Shown here one piece after another: positions 56,200-57,075 of a DNA stretch of 64,000 nucleotides (positions are counted from its first letter, which is position 1; the number at the start of each line of letters is the position of its first letter). This DNA is from Planctomycetota bacterium (lineage in GTDB: Bacteria > Planctomycetota > Planctomycetia > Gemmatales > Gemmataceae). The position numbers were made by a program, and so were the translations under genes. The DNA is taken from the NCBI GenBank assembly GCA_016191165.1, contig JACPPF010000040.1, forward strand, positions 1 through 64,000, read 5' to 3'. Below the pieces are notes generated by a model, which did no database searches, was not told the origin of the DNA, and was given only the letters and a program-made list of their open reading frames with translations.

Positions 56200-56251
56200 T
56201 TCGCGATTTGCGAATTTTTGCCTTGACAAGTTCGCAAAACGCGAATGTAAT
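56200..56251 (+). promoter_or_regulatory. higBA promoter with two operator palindromes
   Basis: TTGACA at 56223-56228 and TGTAAT at 56246-56251 are separated by 17 bases, a near-consensus sigma70 promoter. TTCGC-N5-GCGAA occurs twice: 56200-56214, just upstream of the -35, and 56231-56245, filling the spacer. Their centres are 31 bases apart (three helical turns). A repressor bound there would block RNA polymerase; HigA is the obvious candidate, which is inference. Confidence 0.85.
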
Positions 56252-56280
56252 GCATTGTTGGCTTAAGAAAGGAGAACAAA

Positions 56281-56325
56281 ATGAAACAATTTATTTATCA
56301 TCGAGCGGAGGAGGGATGCACATAA
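56281..56325 (+). CDS. Leader ORF of higBA (14 aa)
   Basis: Directly behind AAAGGAGAACAAA is an ATG that opens MKQFIYHRAEEGCT and stops at TAA 56323-56325. It has the best ribosome site of the locus and overlaps the higB start (ATG 56316) by ten bases in another frame. The higB start has AGGAGG only two bases before it, too close for normal use, so leader translation may couple to or gate higB translation. A non-functional origin cannot be excluded. Confidence 0.55.
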   Translation: MKQFIYHRAEEGCT

Positions 56326-56690
56326 GATCCAAGAAAGCGCTTCGTGATTTTTGGGAGAACCCGAGGAATTCTGAAGCAGAAAAACCTTTGCTGGAATGGT
56401 ATCATGTTGTGAGAAAATCGCGGTGGAATACCTTTGCTGAAGTCAGGCAGACCTTTAATTCCGCCGATCAATATGGCAGAAAGACGATTTTCAACATCGG
56501 AGGAAACAAATACAGGCTAATAGCCGTAATCGATTTCGAGTTGCACATCCTGTATGTCCGAGCCGTATTGACGCACAAAGAGTACGACAAGGCGCAGTGG
56601 AAGAAAGACATATTTGGCGATGATTGGAAACCTATTTTGGGACAAAAGAAAGAAAATGAATACGCGAACAAGAAAAGGAAAACCACGTGA
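56316..56690 (+). CDS. higB: Type II toxin HigB (mRNA interferase)
   Basis: Product of 124 aa of the HigB branch of the RelE fold: MHIRSKKALRDFWENPRNSE at the start, then FNIGGNKYRLIAVIDFELHI and VRAVLTHKEYDKAQWKKDI, which are the strand and H-x-E-Y-D-K motifs of the family. Its C-terminus runs on with Lys/Asn codons and overlaps higA by 35 bases. Base composition is clearly more AT-rich than the neighbours, which suggests transfer. Confidence 0.9.
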   Translation: MHIRSKKALRDFWENPRNSEAEKPLLEWYHVVRKSRWNTFAEVRQTFNSADQYGRKTIFNIGGNKYRLIAVIDFELHILYVRAVLTHKEYDKAQWKKDIFGDDWKPILGQKKENEYANKKRKTT

Positions 56691-57075
56691 TCGATACCTT
56701 GAATTGATTCGTCAATTCCCGTTGCGGCCGATTCGCGACGACGCGGCGTTGGATGAAGCAATTGCGGTAATCAACTCGTTGCTGGACAAGGAGCGATTGA
56801 GTGCTGGCGAAAAGGACTATTTTGACGTCCTTGGTGACCTGATTGAGAAATATGAAGACGCTAACATCATCTTCGAACCGCAGCCGCCGTCAGCGATTTT
56901 GAGGCATTTGATGGAAGCCAAAGGCGTTACGCAAGCCCAGATCGCGAAGGATTGTCGCATTGCGGAATCGACAATATCCGAAGTCCTTAACTCCGTGCGC
57001 AAGTTAAACCGCAACCATATCGCCAAGTTGTCCGTGTATTTTCACGTTGAGCCGGGGGTGTTTTTCGCCGAATGA
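56656..57075 (+). CDS. higA: Antitoxin HigA, HTH Xre-type
   Basis: Product of 139 aa. The N-terminal half is helical (DAALDEAIAVINSLLDKERL). The C-terminal half is a helix-turn-helix of the HigA/Xre type: LRHLMEAKGVTQAQIAKDCR, then AESTISEVLNSVRKLNRNHI, and HVEPGVFF at the end. It probably binds HigB and the TTCGC-N5-GCGAA operators. The start ATG at 56656 lies within the higB coding region; the two are co-transcribed. The stop is 9 bases from the convergent M48 gene. Confidence 0.9.
   Translation: MNTRTRKGKPRDRYLELIRQFPLRPIRDDAALDEAIAVINSLLDKERLSAGEKDYFDVLGDLIEKYEDANIIFEPQPPSAILRHLMEAKGVTQAQIAKDCRIAESTISEVLNSVRKLNRNHIAKLSVYFHVEPGVFFAE

Follow-up and report, generated by a model that had tools for sequence, protein, structure and literature searches.

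Gene content of the higBA locus

The window, as we call the whole 64-kb stretch of DNA analyzed here, carries a higBA locus. Judged by sequence comparison, and jointly with autorepression by HigA at two upstream palindromes (O1 and O2, described below), it is very likely a toxin-first type II toxin–antitoxin (TA) operon of the HigB_toxin/long-HigA kind, of the E. coli K-12 higBA type. Its genes are as follows.

56316–56690, + strand: higB, HigB_toxin (PF09907), 124 aa, predicted ribosome-dependent mRNA interferase
56656–57075, + strand: higA antitoxin, 139 aa, C-terminal helix-turn-helix (HTH), start within higB

The higB product matches PF09907 with E 2e-29 (102 bits against a cut-off of 27), and the HigB profile matches the E. 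coli HigB structures 5ifg/5ycl (profile E about 1e-18). The annotated start agrees with the MHxIS start of homologues. We did not take an upstream in-frame ATG (56250) as the start codon of higB, since it shares bases with the −10 box and the homologues begin at MHxIS. The downstream gene, higA, overlaps higB by 35 nt and has almost no Shine-Dalgarno (SD) sequence of its own (−3.9 kcal/mol with the anti-SD). Its product contains an HTH_3 domain (Xre-type HTH; E 3.5e-6, residues 82–134) and aligns to E. coli HigA 5ifg across residues 66–137. Against the TIGR02607 (antidote_HigA) equivalog it scores 22.8 bits, below the curated cut-off of 47.7, and it is not placed in that subfamily, its match being the long E. 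coli K-12 HigA. Toxicity of HigB and its neutralization by HigA are predicted for this pair.

A second type II pair lies about 2 kb upstream, also toxin-first, with a ParE-like toxin (PF05016; 53611–53934) followed by a Phd/YefM antitoxin (PF02604; 53931–54242).

HigB homologues were collected from 95 same-family genomes, of which 27 gave a match, as well as from 392 genomes of the phylum and 80 GTDB contigs of many phyla, giving a comparison set of 135 higBA loci with distinct upstream DNA, the window locus included. The HigB proteins of the nearest relatives are about 50–61% identical to that of the window, and none closer was found in the sampled genomes and contigs. A single-sequence HigB search of the GTDB contigs and viral contigs returned no relatives, unlike profile-based and whole-genome searches.

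Palindromes in the higBA promoter

Four elements upstream of higB make up the putative promoter and its candidate operators.

56200–56214, no strand: O2, promoter-distal palindrome TTCGC-GATTT-GCGAA (TTCGCGATTTGCGAA), probable second HigA site and near-inverted copy of O1 at 31-bp spacing
56223–56228, + strand: −35 element TTGACA, assigned from sequence and from a TTGAC-like hexamer at a fixed offset from the palindrome center in homologues
56231–56245, no strand: O1, palindrome TTCGC-AAAAC-GCGAA (TTCGCAAAACGCGAA), probable main HigA operator, assigned from conserved position and helix/operator covariation
56246–56251, + strand: −10 element TGTAAT (5/6 to TATAAT), assigned from sequence; relatives have GATAAT/GATACT in the same place

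The preliminary description had reported TTCGC-N5-GCGAA twice, 31 bases apart, and both copies are present at that distance (between start positions). The window contains no other match to the motif (0.32 matches expected in 64 kb). It had also stated that one copy fills the 17-base spacer between TTGACA and TGTAAT; the placement and the spacer length (17 bp, 56229–56245) are correct, and O1 takes up 15 of the 17 bases. The family consensus is a more perfect palindrome than either copy. An automated promoter scan made no call at TTGACA-17-TGTAAT, because it requires an A at position 2 of the −10 element. The one exact copy of O2 elsewhere in the genome, on contig C70, was considered as a second operon and rejected, as it sits inside an unrelated coding gene.

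Based on the compared upstream sequences, the promoter-spacer palindrome is a hallmark of the family, and its place is kept across the family and the phylum. Homologous loci carry the same palindrome in the same promoter register, the closest of them with the promoter sequence TTGACA-TCTTCGCAATTTGCGAA-GATAAT or a near match to it. When the palindromes were restricted to those with 7/8 or more symmetric pairs, TTGACA-like hexamers located 14–16 bp before the center numbered 25, against about 2.5 per comparable draw with random centers. Of the 122 loci to which an operator could be assigned, 20 have a second copy of the palindrome (2.9 expected by chance, all spacings together), and in 12 of these 20 it is 29–32 bp away.

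These paired copies bear on a different reading of the window, namely that O1 is the only operator and O2 serves the upstream lactate-racemase-like gene as its intrinsic terminator. O2 could form a stem of seven pairs (three of them G-C) followed by TTTTTG, 43 nt past the end of the larA-like gene, with a weak terminator score. Terminator-like matches, however, occur at chance level (3 found vs. 1.9 per shuffle), the 29–32 bp arrangement recurs at other loci, some of them without a T-run, and 14 of 15 bases of O2 agree with the reverse complement of O1. We regard O2 as a terminator only as unlikely, and take it as a probable second HigA site.

Covariation of the HigA recognition helix and the operator

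The letters of the palindrome change with the protein predicted to bind it. In the HigA recognition helix, X denotes the residue four positions N-terminal to the Ser of S-E-V-L. Where X is Glu, operator position −7 is T (23/23 loci); where it is Gln, the same position is A (34/34 loci). The residue after X follows the inner bases, with Ser mostly paired with CGC and Gly mostly with CTC/CCC, and all 24 loci with a Gln-Gly helix have ATCTC. We take X and the next residue to correspond to Gln28 and Gln29 of the 434 repressor, two residues that read bases directly.

Operator distance also correlates with helix distance in partial Mantel tests, both given HigB distance (r 0.55) and given the N-terminal part of HigA (r 0.39), with 0 of 2000 permutations reaching the observed value in either case. 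Only one or two independent Glu/Gln contrasts could be counted on a HigA tree that excluded the helix, concordant where counted, so shared ancestry carries much of the Glu/Gln count and the covariation is consistent, not statistically proven once ancestry is removed.

The same pattern speaks to whether the palindromes might be targets of a regulator other than HigA. In favor of such a regulator, the operator is assigned to HigA at the window locus from sequence, and TTCGC-N5-GCGAA has 41 other perfect matches in the genome. Many of those matches, on the other hand, are GC-rich (TTCGCC..GGCGAA), and the palindrome changes with the HigA helix locus by locus and across phyla, which makes another regulator extremely unlikely.

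A second, diverged higBA occurs in the same genome (locus L002, contig C72), with a HigB 42% identical to that of the window. Its palindrome (GGTTACATAATGTAAAC) and its HigA helix both differ from those of the window locus, so cross-repression between the two systems looks unlikely.

The Gln-Gly HigA class, with 24 loci from many phyla (L038, L072, L075, L079, L080, L083, L094, L096, L098, L103, L104, L108, L112, L119, L122, L125–L127, L129, L130, L134, L138, L141, L142), has the higB start codon 17–21 bp from the operator center in 23 of 24 cases (mode 19). With the −10 element at its usual place, this distance puts the predicted transcription start on or beside the higB start codon, and from this spacing the higB mRNA of the class is predicted to be leaderless.

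A short ORF overlapping the higB start

Two further features concern translation of higB.

56281–56325 (ATG to TAA), + strand: 14-codon leader ORF (MKQFIYHRAEEGCT) with SD AAAGGAG, not conserved and probably incidental
56307–56311, + strand: higB SD GGAGG, 4 nt before the ATG, −9.5 kcal/mol with the anti-SD

The 14-codon ORF overlapping the higB start is present as first described. It crosses the higB ATG (56316) in a different reading frame and stops 10 nt inside the gene (ATGCACATAA). The preliminary description went on to propose a translational gate on toxin production. Under this reading, ribosomes would have to read the leader and then re-initiate at higB, thereby setting toxin output. 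A seven-nucleotide SD at good spacing (6 nt) and an end just inside higB, a layout that permits coupling, favor this. So does precedent: the toxins of the type I TA systems hok/mok and ldrD/ldrX are coupled to short overlapping leader ORFs (PMC8167048), and iraD is translationally coupled to a short overlapping ORF (PMC5574718). The type I systems resemble the window in having a small ORF over the toxin start; they differ in being controlled by antisense RNA (PMC8167048). The window ORF, by contrast, lacks conservation, and higB has an accessible SD of its own.

Two premises of the gate did not hold on recalculation. The leader had been credited with the best ribosome site of the locus, yet AAAGGAG pairs with the anti-SD at −9.0 kcal/mol and the higB GGAGG at −9.5 kcal/mol, with pairings closer than 3 nt to the ATG left out (a standard anti-SD was assumed; the 16S 3′ end was not found in the assembly). 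The higB SD, said to be only two bases from its ATG, can be read as GGAGG at either 4 nt or 1 nt from it, and the 4-nt register is usable. It is also mostly unpaired in the predicted fold (z −1.7). With a site this strong and this open, there is no obvious structure for the leader to open.

Conservation in close homologues had been set beforehand as a first test that could refute the gate, and the leader ORF is not conserved. An ATG leader with an SD of at least 6 across the higB start was found in 0 of the 134 other distinct loci, and no comparable short ORF overlaps the start in the two same-genus loci most like that of the window. Start-crossing leaders are as frequent as expected from shuffled versions of the window leader, both with an SD of at least 4 (15/135 loci, 11%, vs. 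13%) and with an SD of at least 6 (2/135, 1.5%, vs. 1.7%). A degenerate search of viral contigs for the first eight codons of the leader peptide gave no match. In the Glu-type class, leader length varies widely, with 18–207 bp from operator center to ATG. Finally, the start of higA lies within higB and has hardly any SD, so any gate on higB would act on higA too, and limiting the toxin would starve the antitoxin.

We consider the gate quite improbable, and the leader ORF is probably background. A version confined to this locus, with loading at AAAGGAG, translation of 14 codons, and re-initiation 7 nt back at higB, is very doubtful; in it, the AAA second codon would be a possible cleavage target of free HigB. 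If true, such cleavage would provide post-transcriptional feedback on a type II toxin. We infer that the leader has no function at the window locus.

Another out-of-frame ORF was seen at a Planktothrix higB (locus L121), 55 bp before the assigned start, and it ends 29 nt inside the assigned gene. Its first residues, MHIISKSKLKPFWTKYPNN, are those of a HigB N-terminus, pointing to a frameshift or to partial duplication of the start.

Comparison with characterized systems

Autorepression through an antitoxin site inside the operon's own promoter is a known design, and the window layout matches the mapped operator of V. cholerae higBA2. There, a HigA2 dimer binds TGTACGC-N5-GCGTACA, and the footprint begins after the −35 element and runs over the −10 element (PMC11006873). 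Both systems have an N5-centered inverted repeat in the promoter; V. cholerae has a single operator, in contrast to the two palindromes of the window (PMC11006873). The likeness is one of operator layout, and HigA2 neutralizes HigB2 via a disordered N-terminus (PMC11006873).

E. coli K-12 higBA (ygjNM; 5ifg, 6kml) shares the toxin-first order, the PF09907 toxin, and a long HigA with a C-terminal HTH. It also has two palindromes upstream of higB (GTTGCCAATCTGGCAAC and ATTGCCAATTTGTCAAC, 29 bp apart), although these are nearer the higB start than those of the window. Half-site (GTTGCC vs. TTCGC) and recognition helix (Lys-Ser vs. Glu-Ser) both differ.

The P. aeruginosa higBA promoter likewise contains palindromes bound by HigA dimers, two of which cooperate; these TTAAC-GTTAA palindromes lie in one 28-bp site with the dimers on opposite faces, unlike the two window sites 31 bp apart (PMC6987408). 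In A. baumannii, HigA2 represses its own promoter, more strongly with HigB2 (PMC5906591).

Proposed autorepression of higBA

The gene identities, the geometry of promoter and palindromes, their conserved position, the covariation, and the non-conservation of the leader are read from sequence. On this basis HigA very probably binds and represses the window promoter, a reading well supported by comparison. The autorepression through the palindrome suggested in the preliminary description is supported by its conserved promoter place and by half-site letters that vary with the HigA helix.

As we picture it, a HigA dimer, alone or with HigB, would sit on O1 between the −35 and −10 elements and block RNA polymerase. 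A second dimer would occupy O2, 31 bp upstream; this distance is about three helical turns, so the two dimers fit on the same face of the DNA and would probably bind cooperatively. Degradation of HigA would lift repression and supply fresh HigB and HigA. Translation of the toxin gene would start from its own GGAGG site, and that of higA presumably by coupling from within higB, and the 14-codon leader ORF would be an incidental feature of this one locus.

The striking promoter palindrome would then be the normal autorepression operator of its family, set beside a leader ORF that is background. Across many loci, two recognition-helix residues of HigA appear largely sufficient to tell the operator half-site. 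Such a helix-to-half-site code would offer a simple, testable way to predict HigA operators and cross-talk between higBA systems.
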